Shown one piece after another: positions 2,264-18,594 of a stretch of 20,557 bases of DNA (position 1 is the stretch's first letter; every line of letters starts with the position of its first letter). The stretch is from a virus. Under the pieces are notes generated by a model. It saw only the letters and a list, made by a program, of their open reading frames with translations. It did not search any database and was not told the origin of the DNA. Location: positions 1 to 20,557 of IMG/VR virus record IMGVR_UViG_3300036889_000044; one strand, 5' to 3'. A program made the position numbers and the translations under genes.

Positions 2264-2464
2264 ATGACTGAACCAACAACAGCAATCTATATGACTATCA
2301 TGGAACAAGAGCAATACGTTCGCATGATGAAGTATTACAATGTGGTCATAGAACTGGACAGGATTGATTTCTATAGCATGAAGAATTGCAGGGTGGAAAT
2401 AAACAAAGACAGGGACGGTAACTTATCAGCGGTGAATTATACTATCCACAAGCAGTTGCGTTGA
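2264..2464 (+). CDS. Small hypothetical protein after terL
   Basis: A 66-residue protein. I chose the ATG at 2264, one base after the terL stop; an upstream in-frame ATG lies inside terL and is unlikely. It has a Met/Tyr-rich N-terminal half and a C-terminal part alternating charged and hydrophobic residues (CRVEINKDRDGNLSAVNYTI), which looks like a beta hairpin. I do not recognise it. Its TGA stop lies inside the TTGACA of the first control cassette, so it is the last gene of the terminase transcription unit. Confidence 0.6.
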   Translation: MTEPTTAIYMTIMEQEQYVRMMKYYNVVIELDRIDFYSMKNCRVEINKDRDGNLSAVNYTIHKQLR

Positions 2465-2484
2465 CAGATTGAAAGTGGTAGTAT
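2456..2484 (+). promoter_or_regulatory. Promoter of control cassette 1
   Basis: TTGCGT (2456-2461), 17 nt, then TAGTAT (2479-2484) preceded by GTGG. A TTGACA at 2461-2466 overlaps it and is also present in the other two copies, so the exact -35 is uncertain. The same block is found at 5572 and 17343, always directly after a gene end. Predicted transcription begins near 2491 and enters the conserved CCCTTACGGGCA hairpin. Confidence 0.62.
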
Positions 2485-2508
2485 TTGGATAACTTAATAT
2501 AAGACTAA

Positions 2509-2541
2509 CCCTTACGGGCATACGCAAGTGTGCCTATTTTT
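2509..2541 (+). terminator. Conserved CCCTTACGGGCA hairpin with T-tract, copy 1
   Basis: CCCTTACGGGCA at 2509-2520. GGCATAC (2517-2523) pairs with GTGTGCC (2528-2534) around a GCAA loop, a GNRA-type tetraloop, and TATTTTT follows. This is intrinsic-terminator shape. Because it lies downstream of a promoter and ends one base before an ATG, it may be an attenuator, the 3' end of a short RNA, or a leader hairpin next to a U-rich initiation region. CCC (2509-2511) could alternatively pair with GGG (2516-2518), which competes with the main stem. Confidence 0.6.
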
Positions 2542-2685
2542 ATGGTATCAAAACAAACCAAAAGAAAAGCATTAACAATTAAAAAGATAGCGGAAGATTC
2601 CAACCCCAAACGTATGGACAACAAACCCCATGCCAAAGAGGGAACGTACGGAATTAACCTTAACACCAGAGCTTTAAGCTCATAA
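2542..2685 (+). CDS. 47-aa basic microprotein
   Basis: The ATG sits at the very end of the cassette 1 T-tract and opens a 47-codon frame ending in TAA at 2683-2685. The N-terminal part is strongly basic (MVSKQTKRKALTIKKIAED), followed by a Lys/Asn/Pro-rich region. No domain is recognised. The evidence is the uninterrupted frame filling the gap up to the next gene 13 nt later and its likeness in size and charge to the other small ORFs around portal. A DNA- or RNA-binding or virion-internal role is possible but only inferred. Confidence 0.5.
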   Translation: MVSKQTKRKALTIKKIAEDSNPKRMDNKPHAKEGTYGINLNTRALSS

Positions 2686-2698
2686 TTTAATAAATAAA

Positions 2699-2893
2699 AT
2701 GGCATTAGAAAAAATAAACACAAATAGAGCAGACCCGTTATATTACAGCAAAAAAACTGGAAAATATAAAGCAGATTTAAGTCGTTTTGGTTTATCCAAG
2801 AAAGTCACCGAAGATTCAATAACACCATCAGTAAAATCAATAAGGCGACATCAAATGTCAAAAAAAGAAGCGTTAGCTAAAGCTAAAAAATAA
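2699..2893 (+). CDS. 64-aa lysine-rich small protein upstream of portal
   Basis: A basic protein with Tyr/Lys-rich N-terminal part (YYSKKTGKYKADLSRFGLSKK) and a C-terminal amphipathic basic helix (MSKKEALAKAKK). The start follows an A/T-only leader without Shine-Dalgarno. It ends 3 nt before the portal ATG, so it is co-transcribed with portal. I do not recognise the family. The context, with similar small ORFs on the other side of portal, suggests a role in head assembly or DNA packing; this is inference. Confidence 0.6.
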   Translation: MALEKINTNRADPLYYSKKTGKYKADLSRFGLSKKVTEDSITPSVKSIRRHQMSKKEALAKAKK

Positions 2894-2896
2894 ACC

Positions 2897-4819
2897 ATGT
2901 CTGTAGATTCAAAGAGCGACCCATTTGCGTTGTCCATATCTGGTGTGAGAAATCTCATCGAGAGTGGCATCAACAAAGTCAAAGGTCAAGGTGCAAATCT
3001 TGATGGTGAAGGCGTGGAAGGTGAGAAGATAGACATACTCTCACTTGATATGTCTGATGATGAGCTATTTCGTTTGGCCAAGAAGTGGGAACTGAAATAC
3101 TCCGACTACGAGCCGAAGATTAAACTGCGCCAAGAGGCCAATAAAGCCTTTTATCTAGGCCAACAGAAACTGGGCAACCCCGCAGGAGTAGACGACAGCT
3201 CCGCAATCACCGCTAACCTCATTTTTGAGGCAATGGAGACATTCCTACCGGCCGCCCTCTCAAAGAACCCCGAACCTGTAGTGTGGTCTGATAACTCTCC
3301 TATGGGCAATGAGATAGCGGATAATGTAAAGACCATGTTGCAGTACCATGCAGACCAACTGGCTCTGCGGTCTAAACTGTCATTGATGACCCGCAAGTGG
3401 GCATTGGACTTTCTCGGAGTATTGAAACACGGCTGGAATAACGACTTACAAGAGATTAAGACTGAAATCAGGGACGCCAAGAACTTTGTCTTTGACCCAG
3501 AGGGTTATGTAGACGTGTATGGAGACTTTACCTCATGGATGGGAGAAAAGATTACCGTCAAGGCGGAGAAGTTGATTGAGATGTTTCCTAAAAAGAAAGA
3601 TGTCATTATCCTCATCGTGGACGGCAAACTCGGTACTGAAGTAACTTACACGGAATGGTGGACTGACGAATACACTTTTTACACGTTGAAAGACACGATA
3701 CTTGATAAGCACAAGAACCCCCATTTCAATTACTCACAGGACGGACAGGAGGAGGAAAAAGACGAGGCCACAGGAGCTATAACGAAACAGGCCATCGAGG
3801 AGATACAGGGCAAGAACCATTTTGCCCATCCCATCAAGCCGTACACGTTCCTATCGGTCTTCAATCTTCAGACACAGCCACATGACGTTACCGGCCTTAT
3901 CGAACAGAACATACCCAACCAGCGTCTGATCACCCGACGCACGGAACAGCTGGACTTCAACCTTTCACGGGCAAACAACTCAACCGTATTTTCGGGAGAA
4001 AACTTCAATCAACAGACGGCCAAACAAGCGGCCACGGGCTGGACTAAAGGACACCCTATTCTTGTCCCTGCTGGTAGACCGATACAAGAAGCCATCATGG
4101 ACTTCCCGCCGCCAACAGTGCCCGATAGTTTCTTTAAGGAGCTTGAAACAAACAAGGACAATCTACGCTCAATCTTCGGCGTACAGGGAATAACCGCACA
4201 AGAGCCGACTGACAACACGACGGCTCGAGGAATGATACTCAATCAGCAGTACGACAACTCCCGCATCGGCGGCGGCATTGGAGACAAACTGGAAATGATT
4301 GCCCGCACGGTATTCAACTGGTGGGTACAGCTCTACTATGTCTACTATGATGAACAGCATTTCGCTTCCGTCATTGGTCAATTAAAGGCAACCGAGTATA
4401 TCCAACTATCCTCACAAAACCTTACTGCACGACTCATCGTTTCGGTCTCGCCTGACAGCATGAAGCCTCACGATGAAATAACCGAGATGAATCAGGCTAT
4501 GGAACTCATGCAAGGCGGACTACTCGACCCACAGACGTTTTTCACCAGAATTAACTTTCCCAATCCAAAGGAAACAGCGGGACAATATATGCTTTACAAG
4601 CTACAGCCCCAGGTTTATTTTCAGCTTAATTTTCCGGAAGAGTTCCAGGCCGCTCAACAGGTAGTTATGCAACAGCAACAGGCACAGATGGCCGCTCAAG
4701 GCGGAGCACCACAGCCACAGGGTGGAGGAGGAGCACCGCCCATGCCACCGCAACCGCCAGGTAGCACGGGTGGCGTACCAGCCAATCCAAGTTTAGCAAG
4801 TGTCCCTTTACCAAAATAA
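2897..4819 (+). CDS. Portal protein
   Basis: A 640-residue protein of the size and composition of podovirus-type portals. These form the dodecameric ring at the unique capsid vertex, the site of packaging and tail attachment. An acidic N-terminal region precedes a helical part with typical portal wording: FYLGQQ (86-91), ITANLIFEAMETFLPAALSKNP (about 104-125) and WALDFLGVLKHGWN (168-181), then FDPEG (199-203). The middle contains the segment beginning TTARGM, followed by long helices. The C-terminal tail is Gln-, Gly- and Pro-rich (from about residue 590) and probably disordered or in the barrel/crown. Position between terL and scaffold agrees. Family assignment rests on pattern recognition and synteny. 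Confidence 0.85.
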   Translation: MSVDSKSDPFALSISGVRNLIESGINKVKGQGANLDGEGVEGEKIDILSLDMSDDELFRLAKKWELKYSDYEPKIKLRQEANKAFYLGQQKLGNPAGVDDSSAITANLIFEAMETFLPAALSKNPEPVVWSDNSPMGNEIADNVKTMLQYHADQLALRSKLSLMTRKWALDFLGVLKHGWNNDLQEIKTEIRDAKNFVFDPEGYVDVYGDFTSWMGEKITVKAEKLIEMFPKKKDVIILIVDGKLGTEVTYTEWWTDEYTFYTLKDTILDKHKNPHFNYSQDGQEEEKDEATGAITKQAIEEIQGKNHFAHPIKPYTFLSVFNLQTQPHDVTGLIEQNIPNQRLITRRTEQLDFNLSRANNSTVFSGENFNQQTAKQAATGWTKGHPILVPAGRPIQEAIMDFPPPTVPDSFFKELETNKDNLRSIFGVQGITAQEPTDNTTARGMILNQQYDNSRIGGGIGDKLEMIARTVFNWWVQLYYVYYDEQHFASVIGQLKATEYIQLSSQNLTARLIVSVSPDSMKPHDEITEMNQAMELMQGGLLDPQTFFTRINFPNPKETAGQYMLYKLQPQVYFQLNFPEEFQAAQQVVMQQQQAQMAAQGGAPQPQGGGGAPPMPPQPPGSTGGVPANPSLASVPLPK

Positions 4820-4836
4820 ATTATTAGTGTTATAAT
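4807..4836 (+). promoter_or_regulatory. Possible promoter before the small-ORF cluster
   Basis: TATAAT at 4831-4836 is a perfect -10, with a weak -35 (TTTACC, 4807-4812) 18 nt upstream at the end of the portal gene. The predicted transcript would start about 6 nt before the ATG at 4850. A/T-rich background makes chance occurrence plausible. Confidence 0.32.
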
Positions 4837-4849
4837 AAACAAAAACAAT

Positions 4850-5017
4850 ATGTCACACAAGTTAAATAATCCTTATAACCACCCCATGTTAAAGGGTTTC
4901 AAGGCTAAAACGGGAACTCTTGAAGAGAAGTTGGCCTATATCCGCAACAGCAAAAAGAATCCAGAAAATGTTGCTAAACTGGATGCATTAAAAGCTAAGA
5001 AAAAATATCAAGCATGA
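4850..5017 (+). CDS. 55-aa lysine-rich microprotein
   Basis: A frame of 55 codons from ATG 4850 to TGA 5015-5017. It has an N-terminal Asn/His/Pro part (MSHKLNNPYNHPMLKGFKAK) and then a charged helix with KKNPENVAKLDALKAKKK. No known domain is seen. It is the first of four consecutive small basic ORFs between portal and scaffold. The even length, Lys content and close packing argue that they are real genes. A ten-codon frame overlapping its stop (5014-5046) is too short to call. Confidence 0.55.
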   Translation: MSHKLNNPYNHPMLKGFKAKTGTLEEKLAYIRNSKKNPENVAKLDALKAKKKYQA

Positions 5018-5067
5018 GAATAGAAGCAAGAGAACTTAAAAGATAAAGAAGTTAATCAATAACAAAC

Positions 5068-5241
5068 ATGGAACCAACAAAAACTGCATATACAAGTATT
5101 GCGAAGAATAATAAACTAACCGCTTTACAGAAAAAGAAGTTAAAGAAAATGTCTACTGGAGAGAAAGTCTATAGCTCTCATGAAGACCACATGGACGCAA
5201 TGCACAAACAATTAGGAATAGGTAAGTATCGAAATCAATAA
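5068..5241 (+). CDS. 57-aa lysine-rich microprotein
   Basis: Starts at ATG 5068 after a leader reading AATAACAAAC, ends TAA 5239-5241. It contains a very basic centre (LQKKKLKKMSTGEKVYSS) and a His/Met-rich stretch (HEDHMDAMHKQLG). It is separated by one base from the next small ORF, which suggests translational coupling. I do not recognise the family. A nucleic-acid-binding or packaged internal role is a guess from charge and location. Confidence 0.55.
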   Translation: MEPTKTAYTSIAKNNKLTALQKKKLKKMSTGEKVYSSHEDHMDAMHKQLGIGKYRNQ

Positions 5242-5242
5242 C

Positions 5243-5398
5243 ATGCCACTCACACACAAAGGAAAGGAGATTGAACACGCAATGGAAAAGGAGTATGGAA
5301 AAAAAAAGGGCGAGTCTGTATTCTATGCAAGCAAAAACAAAGGCACTATCAAAGGCGTAGAAGGGAAAAAGAAAGCATTATCAGATAAAAAGAAATAG
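5243..5398 (+). CDS. 51-aa small phage protein with YASKNKGTIKGV motif
   Basis: ATG 5243 to TAG 5396-5398. The sequence KGKEIEHAMEKEYGKKKGE followed by VFYASKNKGTIKGV resembles a widespread family of short phage ORFs found near portal and capsid genes. I recognise the motif from memory and cannot give a family name or function. The protein is over one third Lys/Arg. One base separates it from the ORF before and 2 nt from the ORF after, so these genes form a tight operon. Of the microproteins here this has the best claim to being a conserved family. Confidence 0.62.
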   Translation: MPLTHKGKEIEHAMEKEYGKKKGESVFYASKNKGTIKGVEGKKKALSDKKK

Positions 5399-5400
5399 CT

Positions 5401-5571
5401 ATGGACTTATTCAAAGACATCAAAAAGTCAGGCAATGAAAAGCTCAAACATGAAGCTAAGCACGAGTTGTCAGAGCTTGGTGGTGAAAAGAAAGCCGAAG
5501 CCTATGAAAAGAAAGTAAAGAAGTCCAAGAAGGAAGCATTGGAAAAGAAGAAGAAAGGCGGACGGGAGTAG
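5401..5571 (+). CDS. 56-aa charged alpha-helical microprotein
   Basis: ATG 5401 to TAG 5569-5571. Composition is almost entirely Lys, Glu, Ala and Leu (for example LSELGGEKKAEAYEKKVKK), giving a highly charged, probably continuous helix or short coiled coil, and ending KKKKGGRE. No known family. Its stop codon touches the TTGACA of cassette 2, so it closes the portal transcription unit just as the gene at 2264 closes the terminase unit. Confidence 0.55.
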   Translation: MDLFKDIKKSGNEKLKHEAKHELSELGGEKKAEAYEKKVKKSKKEALEKKKKGGRE

Positions 5572-5599
5572 TTGACACGGTTTTGATTAGTGGTAGTAT
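5572..5599 (+). promoter_or_regulatory. Promoter of control cassette 2
   Basis: TTGACA (5572-5577), 16 nt, TAGTAT (5594-5599) preceded by AGTGG. This is the clearest of the three cassette promoters. It begins one base after the stop codon of the last microprotein gene. The -10 is followed 25 nt later by CCCTTACGGGCA. It probably drives the scaffold gene. Confidence 0.68.
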
Positions 5600-5624
5600 T
5601 GTAGACAAACCTCATAAAGATTAT

Positions 5625-5666
5625 CCCTTACGGGCACACATTGAAAAATGCGTGTCCGTATTTTTT
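5625..5666 (+). terminator. Conserved CCCTTACGGGCA hairpin with T-tract, copy 2
   Basis: CCCTTACGGGCA at 5625-5636. An 11-position stem, 5632-5642 with 5647-5657, includes one G-T pair and one A-C mismatch and closes on a GAAA loop. TATTTTTT runs to 5666 and an ATG follows at 5667. The stem sequence differs from copies 1 and 3 while the fold is kept, so the structure looks to be what is maintained. Confidence 0.62.
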
Positions 5667-5726
5667 ATGAGCATTATTAACGGTTGTAAAGCTTTCCAGG
5701 AATCCATAACAAAAAGCTTGAACTAA
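5667..5726 (+). CDS. Possible 19-aa leader peptide before scaffold gene
   Basis: ATG directly after the T-tract of cassette 2 opens MSIINGCKAFQESITKSLN, ending TAA 5724-5726, 23 nt before the scaffold ATG. It occupies the same place relative to its hairpin as the 47-aa gene at 2542. It could be a leader peptide coupling translation to the hairpin, a decayed small gene, or chance. It carries no obvious run of regulatory codons. Confidence 0.3.
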   Translation: MSIINGCKAFQESITKSLN

Positions 5727-5749: not shown

Positions 5750-6520
5750 ATGGACAAAACAAACAATGCAGAAGTAGACTTCCTGCAAAATCTGAAGTCA
5801 GACGACATTAAGATAAGCGACAACGACGATATTCTCGGAGGAGAGGTGAAGACGGAACCAAAGCCTGAAAAGGTGGAGGACGACGATTCGCCCCGAAACC
5901 GCAGAGAACGTAGATTCGTCAGGGAGATGGAGGAAGTCAGAGCCAAAGCCCAGGAAGACCGTGAGGCGAGAATTAAGGCTGAAGAAAGAGCCGCCGCTAT
6001 CATGGAACTTGGAAATCGTGCCTCGTCTTCTACCGACCCCGATGAAGTCAAGTTCTACGGAGACACACCAGAGGGCAAGTTCGCCAAAGCTTTCATGGAG
6101 AAGAAACTCAAGGAAGTGGAGGAACGGGCTTACTCCCGTGCCATAGGTGAAATCCAAAAAGAGAGGGACGAAGTAGCCCAAGAGGAAGCCAAAGATTCCC
6201 AGACCATTGACCAGGGCATATCCGCCGTTGAACAGGAGTTTGACGTGGACTTGTCAGGCGATACGAAAGAATCTCTGAAACTCCGCAACGGGTACATAGA
6301 CTTTCTTGAGAAATTGACAACCAACGATTTCCCCGATTTCGTGTCCTCATTTGAGATATATCAGCAAATCAACAAGAAGCAACCGAACGAAAACACCCAG
6401 CGTCAGAAAGCTCTCGCAGATAGGAGCATGACCTCATCTGGCAATACAGGTGCGCCGCAACAGCCAAAGTTTAGAAGCGGCAGGGATTACATAGACTATC
6501 TGCAACACATTAACAGCTAA
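5750..6520 (+). CDS. Capsid scaffold-like protein
   Basis: A 256-residue protein, very acidic at the N-terminus (residues 1-45) and then rich in Arg/Glu coiled coil (RNRRERRFVREMEEVRAKAQ from residue 49). A second helical segment follows (MEKKLKEVEERAYSRAIGEI), then a Gln/Pro/Ser linker and a short C-terminal segment (FRSGRDYIDYLQHINS) of the kind that binds coat protein. Scaffolds are highly helical, charged, and encoded between portal and major capsid, as here. No protease catalytic motif is evident. I start at ATG 5750; the alternative TTG at 5732 would add six residues without benefit. No Shine-Dalgarno sequence is present. Confidence 0.75.
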   Translation: MDKTNNAEVDFLQNLKSDDIKISDNDDILGGEVKTEPKPEKVEDDDSPRNRRERRFVREMEEVRAKAQEDREARIKAEERAAAIMELGNRASSSTDPDEVKFYGDTPEGKFAKAFMEKKLKEVEERAYSRAIGEIQKERDEVAQEEAKDSQTIDQGISAVEQEFDVDLSGDTKESLKLRNGYIDFLEKLTTNDFPDFVSSFEIYQQINKKQPNENTQRQKALADRSMTSSGNTGAPQQPKFRSGRDYIDYLQHINS

Positions 6521-6544: not shown

Positions 6545-6573
6545 TTGAAAGTGTACTTTGAAATTGGTATAAT
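6545..6573 (+). promoter_or_regulatory. Consensus promoter giving a near-leaderless HNH transcript
   Basis: TTGAAA (6545-6550), exactly 17 nt, TATAAT (6568-6573). This is the best consensus promoter in the window. Transcription would start around 6580, which is the A of the HNH ATG, implying a leaderless mRNA or one with only a few leader bases. Confidence 0.7.
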
Positions 6574-6579
6574 GTGGTT

Positions 6580-7029
6580 ATGATTAAGGCACGAAATAAA
6601 GGAGCTGGGCAGAAAAAAGGACATATAGTAAGCCCAGAAACTAGACTCAAGATTAAGATTGCTAATACAGGCAAAAAAAGGACTTTGGAAGTAAGAAGAA
6701 AACTTAGCGATATAAAGATAAAAAGCTATGATTCTCAACTTCCCCCTGAAATCTTTATTGAAAATGAGTCAACAAGCGCTAGAAGAAAAAGAGTTAGACG
6801 GTGGAGGATTAAGATAAACGGAGGATTTCATTCTCTTGGAGAATGGGAAACCGTAAAAGCTCAATTCAACTGGTCTTGTCCATCATGCTCTAAGTCAGAA
6901 CCAGAAATAACATTAACGCGTGACCACATTATACCCATTTCAAAGGGTGGTACAGACAACATTGAAAACATACAACCATTATGTCGTAAATGTAACACTC
7001 TGAAATCCACAAGCACCATAACGTACTAG
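6580..7029 (+). CDS. HNH homing endonuclease 1, NUMOD3-like
   Basis: A 149-residue protein from ATG 6580; a GTG at 6574 is possible but overlaps the -10 end. The N-terminal 45 residues carry the NUMOD3-type DNA-binding pattern (SPETRLKIKIANTGKKRT, EVRRKLSDIK). The C-terminal HNH nuclease has a zinc site formed by C100/C103 and C135/C138, the DH pair D115-H116 in TRDHIIPISKGG, and N127/N130 in TDNIENIQPLC. Such proteins nick or cut DNA and spread their own gene. It has its own promoter and is visibly more A/T-rich than scaffold and capsid on either side, both signs of insertion. Its stop (7027-7029) overlaps the open capsid frame. Confidence 0.88.
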   Translation: MIKARNKGAGQKKGHIVSPETRLKIKIANTGKKRTLEVRRKLSDIKIKSYDSQLPPEIFIENESTSARRKRVRRWRIKINGGFHSLGEWETVKAQFNWSCPSCSKSEPEITLTRDHIIPISKGGTDNIENIQPLCRKCNTLKSTSTITY

Positions 7030-8976: not shown

Positions 8977-8988
8977 TAACATTATTAA
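8977..8988 (+). repeat. 12-mer TAACATTATTAA at the start of HNH gene 2
   Basis: Identical to 6518-6529 upstream of HNH gene 1. Here its last A is the A of the HNH gene 2 ATG (8988). Confidence 0.5.
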
Positions 8989-9563
8989 TGGCTTTTAAGA
9001 AAAATTACATACCATGGAATAAGGGAAAAATACTTGCTCCATTAAGTGATGAAATTAAAGCCAAGATTAGTGTTTCGTTGAAGGGAAGAAAGTACAGTGA
9101 AGAACATAGAAATAAATTATCTCTTTCGAAGATGGGAGATAAGAATCCTCAAAGACTTCTAAAGAATAGAGAGAAAAATAGAATAGCTCATCTTGGAAAA
9201 AAGTGTTCTCCTGAAACAATAAAAAAGATGAGAGATTCTCACCCCACGGGAGAAAAAAGTCCTCTTTGGATTAAGGATAGAACCAAACTCTCTAGAATTA
9301 GCAAGCAAGGAGACCGAAGAACATCCGCATATCTTTTCTGGAGAAAATCAGTTTGGCTACGAGATAACTTCAAATGCAAGATAGCCAATCCAAACTGCAA
9401 CGGCAGAATAGAAGCACATCACATTCTATCGTGGAGAGATTATCCAGAATTAAGACATGATGTAAATAATGGAATTACTCTCTGCCATTATCATCACCCA
9501 AGAAAGAGAGTCGAAGAAGTAAGTCTAGTTTCTTACTTCCAAGAATTACTAAAAACTACATAA
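8988..9563 (+). CDS. HNH homing endonuclease 2, NUMOD3-type repeats
   Basis: A 191-residue protein. The N-terminal part opens IPWNKGK and then has tandem NUMOD3-like helices (SDEIKAKISVSLKGRKYSEE, HRNKLSLSKMGD, SPETIKKMRDSH) that grip DNA. The nuclease domain follows: FWRKSVWLRDNFKC with C130 and C137, the HH pair H144-H145 in EAHHILSW, N160 and/or N161, and C166/H169 in TLCHYHHPRKR. It is a free-standing homing-type nuclease related in plan to the gene at 6580 but with a different HNH zinc arrangement, so the two are not recent copies. It is markedly A/T-rich compared with both neighbours. Its stop lies 12 nt before, and in the same frame as, the TTG of the next gene. Confidence 0.9.
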   Translation: MAFKKNYIPWNKGKILAPLSDEIKAKISVSLKGRKYSEEHRNKLSLSKMGDKNPQRLLKNREKNRIAHLGKKCSPETIKKMRDSHPTGEKSPLWIKDRTKLSRISKQGDRRTSAYLFWRKSVWLRDNFKCKIANPNCNGRIEAHHILSWRDYPELRHDVNNGITLCHYHHPRKRVEEVSLVSYFQELLKTT

Positions 9564-16200: not shown

Positions 16201-17015
16201 ACGAACAGGCCATCAGAAAAATAGTAGACGATGAGATAAAAAAGAAGCTGTTTCAGCTTCCTAAGATTCCGCCGCATAAGCATGACGGGACGGATAATAT
16301 AAATATTCCTGCAACAAGTGTTACCCCTCCCATCAGAGCAATGGCGACTAGAGTAAGGTTTAACGAAAATCAAAATTATACTTTCTACTTTCCGTCCATA
16401 TCACCGCAGATGGTACTGTTCGAGGGATATGCCCTGCAAAATACTTCGGTAACTAAGTTCACAATGACCAGTTCCCTTTCTGCGGGAGCAAATTTCGGTA
16501 CACTTACTTCGACATGGGGTGGTTCAACGGAAAACCTTTTGGTTACATTTTCAAGCGGTGAAACGAGAGTTGTCAGTTTTACAAGCGGTTCATTGACGAT
16601 ATTTTGGACTCCGCCGTTAAACTTTTCAGCAGGAACTACCGCCGAATACGCAACCGCGGCCGCATATGCCCTTATCAATGGAAATGCAATCATCAGCCCA
16701 GCCTATCAGTTTCAAGCGGCAACTTCTTCTTCTGTTGTAGTCGGAGGGTTGGAGTATCCTATTTCAACAATCACGCCCCAAGCAATAAATCAAATTGGAG
16801 TATTGGCACAGTCATCGGCAAACACCTATCTTGACCCTACAAACGTTGCAAACATGACCGCCCATTTGGACGCTAATTTTATCGTCAATGTGTATTCAAA
16901 TACGAATGGAAATGTTGCCACCGCGCAACTATTTTCAGTCAATCAGGGTTCGGTAGTTCTTCAGGTAACAAATCTAAATGGCTGGCATATACTCGGAAAT
17001 CTAACTTTTATCTAG
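16197..17015 (+). CDS. Fibre-like or tail accessory protein with HKHDGTD motif
   Basis: A 272-residue protein. ATG 16197 overlaps the previous stop (ATGA); an earlier in-frame ATG at 16113 lies inside the nozzle gene. A charged helix (MNEQAIRKIVDDEIKKKLF) leads to PKIPPHKHDGTDN at residues 22-34, a hinge motif common in phage fibre and baseplate-like proteins. Residues 75-142 hold the recurring beta domain (FTMTSSLSAG, STWGGSTENLLVTFSSGE, FTSGSLTIFWTPPL). The C-terminus is beta (VVLQVTNLNGWHILGNLTFI). The helix probably trimerises or docks on the tail. Its TAG overlaps the stop of the convergent gene by 3 nt. Confidence 0.62.
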   Translation: MNEQAIRKIVDDEIKKKLFQLPKIPPHKHDGTDNINIPATSVTPPIRAMATRVRFNENQNYTFYFPSISPQMVLFEGYALQNTSVTKFTMTSSLSAGANFGTLTSTWGGSTENLLVTFSSGETRVVSFTSGSLTIFWTPPLNFSAGTTAEYATAAAYALINGNAIISPAYQFQAATSSSVVVGGLEYPISTITPQAINQIGVLAQSSANTYLDPTNVANMTAHLDANFIVNVYSNTNGNVATAQLFSVNQGSVVLQVTNLNGWHILGNLTFI

Positions 17016-17305
17016 TTGTCAGACATTAAATGGTTTGACCTACAAGTTGGCTTTGCTTGAGAGGCGGGAAAGTCTCCGCACCACGGTAATGGATTTATAT
17101 ATACAGGTGTTTCTTGTGAAACAGTCTCGATATTATTAGGAGGTGTTGAAACTACGGGAGTAGATACGATTGGTGGGGTTACAACGGGAACGTCACTAGT
17201 ATTGACGATAATAGGAGTGCATACATACCCCACTGGACATAAATTCATGGTAGAATGGGTATATGAGGATGTGGCTATTGCCAAAGAAAGAATGATTGTT
17301 TTCAT
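17012..17305 (-). CDS. Secreted Pro/Val/Thr-rich small protein on the reverse strand
   Basis: A 97-residue protein, the only convincing reverse-strand gene. It starts MKTIILSLAIATSSYTHS, a short but plausible signal peptide (Lys, then nine hydrophobic or small residues). The mature part has NLCPVGYVCTP (C23, C29), a repetitive linker PVVTPPIVSTPVVSTPP (40-56), and a C-terminal part with PWCGDF (C76) and PTCRSN (C88). Four cysteines suggest two disulfides outside the cytoplasm. There is no competing + strand frame over this gap, so it is not a shadow. Function unknown: possibly a surface, lysis-related or superinfection-exclusion protein. No good promoter was found. Confidence 0.55.
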   Translation of the reverse strand: MKTIILSLAIATSSYTHSTMNLCPVGYVCTPIIVNTSDVPVVTPPIVSTPVVSTPPNNIETVSQETPVYINPLPWCGDFPASQAKPTCRSNHLMSDN

Positions 17306-17342: not shown

Positions 17343-17371
17343 TTGATTTGACAGATAAAGTAGTGTACTAT
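17343..17371 (+). promoter_or_regulatory. Promoter of control cassette 3
   Basis: TTGATT (17343-17348), 17 nt, TACTAT (17366-17371). As in cassette 1, TTGACA (17348-17353) overlaps the -35 region, and the block TTGxxTTGACAGAT is shared with 2456-2469. It lies in the intergenic space between the reverse-strand gene and the adaptor-like gene and points at the latter. Confidence 0.6.
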
Positions 17372-17394: not shown

Positions 17395-17431
17395 CCCTTA
17401 CGGGCAACAGACAATGTTGCCTTTTATTTTT
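17395..17431 (+). terminator. Conserved CCCTTACGGGCA hairpin with T-tract, copy 3
   Basis: CCCTTACGGGCA at 17395-17406. GGCAACA (17403-17409) pairs perfectly with TGTTGCC (17415-17421) around GACAA, followed by TTTTATTTTT. The next ATG is at 17440. The upstream AACTTAATA...ACTAACC is shared with copy 1. Same fold as copies 1 and 2 with different stem bases. Confidence 0.62.
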
Positions 17432-17439
17432 ATACACAA

Positions 17440-18594
17440 ATGATTACGTTCACTCAAATTACAGGAAGCACTGCAAGCACTTCACCATCAACGTATGGCA
17501 ATGCCTTTACGACATTGTGCAACAACAATTCACAGACTGCTGTAACATTCGGTCAGGCACAGGCAAATAACTATCATCGTTTCCTCATACAGAAATACTT
17601 TGATAACGAGCGTACCTTTTCCATTCCCGTTGTCGGGCCGAGAACACTGACGTTCACAGGCTCTCTAGCCCAGTACGCCGTATCAGCAACCATGACAACC
17701 ACATGGCCTAAAATGACTTGTACACAGCAAGTAACGTTCTCAACGGGTGATATGCGGATATGTTCATTCACGAACGGTCTAGCGACGATTACATGGAACG
17801 TACCACTACCCAAAGCTGTAACCAGTTCAGCTTCTGCTTTAGGCGTTCGAGATTACCCCATTCCCGCAAATATCTCAAAAATAACCAACGGAACGGTTAC
17901 TGTCGGAGAATTAGTCTTTCAACCTTTCCCCACTCAATCCCGTCAAGAGTGGGATATGATAAACACCATTCCTTACGGTTCGGATATTCCCAACTACTTC
18001 TTCATTTACGGAGGAACTATGGGTATCTGGCCTATTCCCTCAACCGACTACAATCCCTTAACGTTCAACTACAAAGCCCGTGTGCCGGACTTGTCATTTC
18101 AAGATTATTCTACGGGCAATGTAACTGCCATGACGCAAAACAGTTTTCAGGTAACGGGTTCAAGTACAACATGGTCATCACAGTTTCCCCTCAATGTGGA
18201 CGTTTCATACTTCAACCTCATGCTACGGGTCAATCCGCCAAACGGAGACGGTATGTGGTATCCGATTTCCTCATTCCAAAGCGACACCGCGCTTACATTG
18301 GCGTTGCCTGTAGTGAACGCACCAAACATCACAGGAAGCTCAACCTACACCATTGGACAAATGCCACTGTTGCAGGAAGATTTTCATGACACTATTATCT
18401 ATGGGATTTTGATGTCTTACTATACGACCATCGGAAAAGACCCCGACAGGTTCAAGATATTCAAGGATATGTATGAGACACGTCTTCTCCTCATGGAAGA
18501 TTATCTTGGTACAAAGTCAATACAGGTAGACCTTGAGGACACCGTACCGCTTTTGAACCCGAATCTCATGCCTTATAAAACATCAATAAATTAA
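17440..18594 (+). CDS. Head-tail adaptor / tail tubular A-like protein
   Basis: A 384-residue protein. The recurring beta domain occupies about 68-124 (TFTGSLAQYAVSATMTTTW, VTFSTGDMRICSFTNG, ITWNVPL). From about residue 185 a typical podovirus adaptor pattern begins: FFIYGGTMGIWPIPSTDYNP, LTFNYKARVPDLSF, DGMWYPISSFQS, TLALPVV, then helices LLQEDFHDTIIYGILMSYYT and FKIFKDMYETRLLLMEDYL. In T7-like and related phages such proteins form the ring between portal and nozzle. The long 'YGG...IWP.P......Y......' stretch followed by a helical pair supports this, though I have no database match. It is the first gene after cassette 3. Confidence 0.62.
   Translation: MITFTQITGSTASTSPSTYGNAFTTLCNNNSQTAVTFGQAQANNYHRFLIQKYFDNERTFSIPVVGPRTLTFTGSLAQYAVSATMTTTWPKMTCTQQVTFSTGDMRICSFTNGLATITWNVPLPKAVTSSASALGVRDYPIPANISKITNGTVTVGELVFQPFPTQSRQEWDMINTIPYGSDIPNYFFIYGGTMGIWPIPSTDYNPLTFNYKARVPDLSFQDYSTGNVTAMTQNSFQVTGSSTTWSSQFPLNVDVSYFNLMLRVNPPNGDGMWYPISSFQSDTALTLALPVVNAPNITGSSTYTIGQMPLLQEDFHDTIIYGILMSYYTTIGKDPDRFKIFKDMYETRLLLMEDYLGTKSIQVDLEDTVPLLNPNLMPYKTSIN

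Follow-up and report, generated by a model that had tools for sequence, protein, structure and literature searches.

Promoter-to-terminator cassettes with a covarying hairpin upstream of phage structural genes: probable attenuation switches accompanied by a small candidate antiterminator protein

Gene content of the window

The DNA analyzed, hereafter referred to as the window, is a viral record of 20.6 kb (20,557 nucleotides; IMGVR_UViG_3300036889_000044) that comprises the terminase-to-tail half of a phage with a P22-like portal. The genes for TerS and TerL start at positions 216 and 670, respectively. The gene directly following TerL (2264..2464, plus strand, with the start at either 2237 or 2264) encodes a protein of approximately 66 to 75 residues, here termed P75, and its stop codon overlaps the promoter region of the first of three cassettes described below. 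The P22-like portal gene (2897..4819, plus strand; PF16510, 4.8e-12; phrog_156) is located downstream of this cassette, and genes for a scaffold-like protein of approximately 256 residues, the major capsid protein, and a tail/adaptor protein start at positions 5750, 7172, and 17440. Two open reading frames (ORFs) of the HNH/NUMOD3 homing endonuclease type (6574-7029 and 8988-9563) lie on either side of the major capsid gene, the first of them being preceded by TTGAAA-17-TATAAT (6545-6573), which scores better as a promoter than any other site in the window.

A search of 50,697 named phage records gave only two relatives of the window portal, one in a TM7 (Saccharibacteria) phage (24%) and one in an unassigned member of the Caudoviricetes (23%), and more than 200 relatives are present in IMG/VR. 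Apart from the TM7 phage and MW202566, both of which lack the cassette as well as P75, no named phage has a related portal. A scan of genome contigs for the host returned a single contig of a metagenome-assembled genome with unsure binning. The promoters of the window are canonical sigma70-like, and its start codons are preceded by A/U-rich sequence.

Three cassettes of identical layout

The preliminary description had reported the succession of a promoter, an identical 12-mer, a hairpin, a T-tract, and an ATG at three loci, and direct reading of the sequence located every element at its place, always on the plus strand. In cassette 1, the promoter TTGCGT-17-TAGTAT with an extended -10 TG (2456..2484; -35 at 2456-2461, -10 at 2479-2484) is followed after 24 nt by the 12-mer CCCTTACGGGCA (2509-2520). 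Within it lies a small hairpin, CCC-TTAC-GGG (2509..2518), preceded by UAA, which aligns with a covarying hairpin of the relatives and is designated P1. The GGG of P1 is shared with an intrinsic terminator (2516-2535), whose T-tract (2536-2541; whole element 2516..2541) directly adjoins the ATG (2542-2544) of a 47-codon ORF (2542..2685), related ORFs being found at the same place in near relatives. Cassette 2 consists of the promoter TTGACA-16-TAGTAT (5572..5599; -35 at 5572-5577, -10 at 5594-5599), the 12-mer CCCTTACGGGCA 25 nt after the -10 box (5625-5636), P1 of the same sequence, likewise aligned with the covarying hairpin (5625..5634), and a terminator (5629-5660) with its T-tract (5629..5666), and is situated upstream of the scaffold-like/major-capsid block; the ATG at 5667-5669 opens an ORF of only about 19 codons, and the gene for the 256-residue protein begins at 5750. 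In cassette 3, the promoter TTGATT-17-TACTAT (17343..17371; -35 at 17343-17348, -10 at 17366-17371) is followed after 23 nt by CCCTTACGGGCA (17395-17406), P1 again with the sequence CCC-TTAC-GGG and aligned in the same way (17395..17404), and a terminator (17402-17422) with its T-tract (17402..17431), upstream of the tail/adaptor gene (ATG 17440-17442). Just upstream of cassette 3, a 97-residue ORF on the minus strand (17012-17305) displays a signal-peptide-like start and Pro/Thr/Val-rich repeats.

The 12-mer occurs exactly three times in the window, the number expected from 100 dinucleotide shuffles being 0.00, and the three leaders fold better than their dinucleotide shuffles (z = -2.7, -5.0, and -4.1). 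For the window alone, neither a generic promoter scan (40 hits versus 33.9 expected) nor a generic terminator scan (20 versus 18.8) was significant; the strength of the cassettes is in their arrangement and conservation, not in such scans. While the presence of the identical 12-mer 23 to 25 nt past the -10 box was borne out, its status as a linear motif was not: it forms the inner portion of a short hairpin overlapping the terminator, and in more distant relatives it is missing despite the preserved architecture, the same fold being formed by other letters. When all viral contigs were scanned for the combination of 12-mer and hairpin, the hits were five contigs with a terminase matching that of the window at 100% and one chance match within a coding region (L172).

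Conservation of the cassette in related phages

The order of promoter, short leader, intrinsic terminator, and start codon was found upstream of the portal gene in approximately 34 of 73 scorable portal loci, with differing primary sequence and with portal identities to the window of 36 to 100%; relatives at 36 to 87% identity retain this order in different letters. The cassette is positioned just downstream of TerL and a small ORF, the distance from the -10 box to P1 is 5 to 28 nt in most copies, and the start codon follows the T-tract within 0 to 25 nt, again in most copies. Promoter scores of at least 9.5 were obtained for 29 of 38 cassettes (shuffled mean 4.9, maximum 10). The preliminary description had raised the question of unrelated sequence at the three places in related phages. 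For site 1 the architecture is kept in the approximately 34 relatives mentioned, whereas for sites 2 and 3 conservation is limited to the nearest ones, one of which (G001) carries all three cassettes and another (G002) those at the portal and tail sites (1 and 3); in a further relative (G004), a second cassette is present at another place in the genome. Since the usual order of terminator and then promoter is found elsewhere in the same genomes (e.g., G006 27084 and G012 34657), the reversed order is specific to the cassette sites.

None of the 39 cassette-less relatives has a terminator within 150 nt upstream of the portal gene, and promoter-like sites are present there in modest excess, a pattern that would fit a joint gain or loss of attenuator and factor at an old promoter. 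A genome-wide scan for P1 plus terminator in which no promoter was demanded was unspecific (34 hits versus 19 to 34 in shuffled genomes), and the copies per genome were therefore counted by inspection, with a promoter required. In some relatives (L071 and L129 as well as, e.g., L025, L074, and L125), an extra hairpin is present between the start site and P1, the leader being 36 to 55 nt long; this additional hairpin might be a second regulatory input.

P1 covaries and shares a strand with the terminator

P1 comprises approximately 22 nt (about 14 to 25) and consists of an outer helix of 3 bp, a 3x1 internal loop of the type YAA/C, an inner helix of 3 bp, and an A/C-rich loop of 4 to 7 nt. Examples are TCC-TAA-CCT-AACAA-AGG-C-GGA (L037), ACT-CAA-CCT-AACAA-AGG-C-AGT (L117), GCC-AA-TGT-AACGAA-ACA-A-GGC (L124), GAC-TAA-CTC-CACGAA-GAG-C-GTC (L129), and GCC-ATC-CAC-AACAAA-GTG-A-GGC (L086). 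In the window, P1 is reduced to (U)AA-CCC-TTAC-GGG; here as in the closest relatives, the outer helix is lost and only 3 bp remain. Because the boundaries of P1 were set by complementarity, counts of paired positions lean towards structure, and shuffled searches served as the control: the outer helix is fully paired in 30 of the 30 copies having it (shuffled mean 8.1, maximum 16) and the inner helix in 38 of 39 (shuffled mean 10.7, maximum 19). Each of the six pairs is realized by two to four Watson-Crick types across the copies, five of them by at least three. Specifically, in nine copies of equal length, aligned without gaps, 54 of 54 cells pair (100%), and the covariation score is 0.741 compared to 0.144 after shuffling (reached in 0 of 500 shuffles) and at most 0.157 for slid controls. 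In a motif search that used the helix layout only, with no contribution of the unpaired positions, 28 of 39 copies scored 14 or more (shuffled leaders, mean 5.3, maximum 13). While the stems vary, unpaired bases are kept: the 5′ bulge ends with AA in 23 of 39 copies, and the hexaloop ends with A in 18 of 19. With its A/C-rich loop and conserved bulge, P1 looks like a protein-binding hairpin. No Rfam family scored above the gathering threshold in the window, L011, L016, or 20 relatives, and no match up to an E value of 5 was obtained for window positions 2400-5700.

In all copies, the 3′ strand of P1 (e.g., AGG-C-GGA) is the lower part of the 5′ arm of the terminator, so that the two structures are mutually exclusive. 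The folding energies are about +1 to -7 kcal/mol for P1 and -10 to -28 kcal/mol for the terminator; consequently, the unaided outcome would be termination, and P1 would need something to hold it. With the 3 bp of P1 kept in the window copies and the closest relatives, a residual hairpin would be left if P1 forms, a point that weighs against the switch. The exclusivity of P1 and terminator and the default outcome follow directly from the sequence and the folding energies, and we infer that the switch operates in the cell. The suggestion of attenuation or antitermination made in the preliminary description is supported by these data, since a putative covarying antiterminator hairpin overlaps a terminator right after a conserved promoter in approximately 34 relatives. 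A leader peptide would not fit into the stretch preceding P1 (mostly 11 to 28 nt, counted from the -10 box), which speaks against attenuation of the trp type.

P75 co-occurs with the cassette

Among the 73 scorable portal loci, divergent homologues of P75 occupy the corresponding position in every cassette-bearing locus, including L117, whose very divergent P75 was missed by the profile and read by eye, and P75 is present in 0 of the 39 cassette-less loci. On a 73-row portal tree, from which three truncated contigs were left out, P75 and the cassette changed five times each and always together. The independent pairs are all concordant, only three of them on well-supported branches, and with three to five independent changes a sign test cannot reach significance. 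When the ORFs of 20 records were clustered, P75 was the sole cluster shared by the eight near-complete genomes with a cassette and missing from every genome without one, only two related genomes of the latter kind having been searched near-completely. The link between P75 and cassette may in part be synteny.

P75 matched no Pfam or PHROG family, tblastn gave no match in named phages, and the P75 profile was too divergent for a scan of the collection. AlphaFold2 predicted a helix-helix-strand-strand fold with a pLDDT of 90, for which no significant PDB or BFVD match was found, the best hit (GnsA, VIA Z 3.3) not being meaningful, and no match to a known RNA-binding fold was obtained. The charge of P75 is near neutral, an unusual property in an RNA-binding protein and the main doubt about such a role. 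P75 is a good candidate and the probable antiterminator protein of the cassettes.

Proposed mechanism

We propose, with a probability of roughly two in three, that the cassettes are transcription-attenuation switches for late structural gene blocks, in which P1 competes with the terminator and P75 is the likeliest factor. Host RNA polymerase would initiate at an ordinary sigma70-type promoter and copy a leader of approximately 10 to 25 nt, then P1, and then an intrinsic terminator re-using the P1 3′ strand. By default, the stronger terminator would prevail, and an RNA of approximately 45 to 65 nt would be released. A trans-acting factor, most likely P75 encoded just upstream, would recognize the unpaired positions that stay constant, in the YAA/C internal loop as well as in the A/C-rich loop, and keep P1 shut. 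With P1 held, the terminator would be blocked, allowing read-through, presumably timed during infection, into the portal, capsid, or tail genes.

Comparison with known systems and alternative explanations

The RAT elements of BglG, SacY, and LicT (PMC9981650) are likewise protein-stabilized hairpins mutually exclusive with a terminator, as is P1 in all copies; they too have a regulator encoded beside its own target and are defined by covariation. In contrast to them, P1 has only about 22 nt and one internal loop, shows no RAT consensus, and occurs outside a sugar/PTS context; among phage proteins, the CAT_RBD domain was found in 0 of 11 phage records, with the control positive in four genomes. 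The targets of the ANTAR proteins EutV, NasR, and AmiR (PMC3369931) resemble P1 in that a tiny short-stem hexaloop hairpin overlaps an intrinsic terminator at its 5′ part and several copies per regulon have a common sequence of about 13 nt, and some P1 loops (AACGAA, AATGAA) fit AANGRR. The repetition of AGCAANGRRGCUY (approximately 13 nt) at four terminators of the eut operon (PMC3369931) is what most closely resembles the threefold occurrence of CCCTTACGGGCA. Unlike ANTAR targets, P1 is single rather than one of two tandem hairpins, for which the 5 to 28 nt between -10 box and P1 leave no room in most copies; a few relatives have a further upstream hairpin, which is of a different type. Moreover, the A1/G4 hexaloop feature is lacking (19 of 39 loops are hexaloops, with A1 in 13 and G4 in 8), P1 has in addition the 3x1 internal loop and the outer helix, and the downstream genes are phage structural genes. 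An ANTAR-domain search matched 0 of 11 records, its control also matching nowhere. The switch would work like RAT and ANTAR and, as far as tested, belongs to neither, since it departs from them in the tested features (dual hairpins, A1/G4, and CAT_RBD) and has no Rfam match.

In the Q (lambda/21) and AlpA systems (PMC6606751, PMC9371919), the known layout is a late promoter with a terminator immediately behind it, which has to be overcome, ahead of late or lysis genes; this layout is found here as well. Processive antitermination of this type, in which a phage protein loads onto polymerase at the promoter so that the adjacent terminator is ignored and P1 is incidental, nonetheless appears unlikely. 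Q and AlpA bind promoter DNA and modify polymerase, whereas here selection acts on an RNA hairpin competing with the terminator; the covariation of P1 with the terminator arm would be left unexplained, and the sequences between the -35 and -10 boxes differ among the copies, as judged by eye. Two of the several Q families, PF06530 and PF03589, were absent from 11 records, with positive controls.

The small conserved RNA near the start site, together with the near-neutral charge of P75 and its lack of an RNA-binding match, would also be compatible with an unassisted switch, in which P1, alone or together with the next hairpin, acts directly on polymerase or via co-transcriptional folding kinetics, P75 being an unrelated neighbor. 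The put RNA of HK022 (PMC9378689) is such a protein-free nascent phage RNA near a promoter opposing termination, but its approximately 70 nt form two long stem-loops, with no overlap to the terminator that it suppresses, unlike the single, overlapping 22-nt hairpin P1. As P1 alone lacks the stability to keep the terminator from forming and P75 tracks the cassette perfectly, an unassisted switch is improbable.

The short RNA of approximately 45 to 65 nt postulated in the preliminary description is retained as the predicted default product of the attenuation switch; no sign of a regulator role in its own right was found. A regulatory RNA with P1 and terminator as its 3′ end and downstream genes relying on leaky read-through would account for a discrete product of this size and might accommodate the tRNA-like RNA between promoter and P1 in L011 (see below). 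It is very improbable, since a target-pairing sequence would be expected to be kept, yet the leaders vary freely with only the fold conserved, and the terminator lies directly before structural genes in each case. Finally, a translation leader in which hairpin and U-rich tract replace the Shine-Dalgarno sequence, which the preliminary description had also proposed and which is suggested by the proximity of start codon and T-tract in most copies, can practically be discarded, because a clear Shine-Dalgarno sequence is missing in front of all 23 starts that were read in the window, among them every start lacking a cassette, so that the absence is genome-wide, and because the promoter and the exclusivity of P1 and terminator would remain unexplained.

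Implications

Phage late genes are classically activated by sigma factors, phage polymerases, or Q/N/P7 proteins modifying RNA polymerase, and terminator/antiterminator RNA switches are known from bacterial metabolic operons. In the literature searched, no paper was found that links phage RNA motifs, intrinsic terminators, and capsid genes, nor one that links antitermination with Patescibacteria. We tentatively consider the possibility, somewhat short of an even chance, that P1, with its YAA internal loop and A/C-rich loop, and P75, as a family of small RNA-binding proteins of new fold, form an undescribed protein-dependent RNA antiterminator family for phage structural genes. It would serve up to three operons per genome in a large clade of uncultured phages and act by RNA refolding rather than via a phage sigma factor, a phage polymerase, or Q-type modification. 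The P75-P1 pair is accordingly offered as a candidate new regulator-target family amenable to testing. If true, a broad group of uncultured phages would use a different late-gene route, namely an RNA switch for virion genes, and a function would be assigned to a small protein family that has no Pfam or PHROG match. The compact RNA-protein pair could serve as a genetic switch, and the motif would be searchable for late-gene control in viral dark matter.

RNA genes of relatives

In a relative with 78% identity (L011), a tRNA-like RNA ending with CCACCA (9360-9473) is located between the promoter of the portal cassette and P1; its best Rfam match, tRNA-Sec (21.6 bits, E value 0.04), is below the gathering threshold, and ARAGORN made no call. 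One record of approximately 42 kb (G003, L166:4638-7756) contains 23 RNA genes, i.e., 22 tRNAs and a tmRNA with the tag AKAIPSPYARELGVLAFA, and another of approximately 42 kb (G008, L168/L169) contains 19 tRNAs, sets that are unusually large for the genome size.
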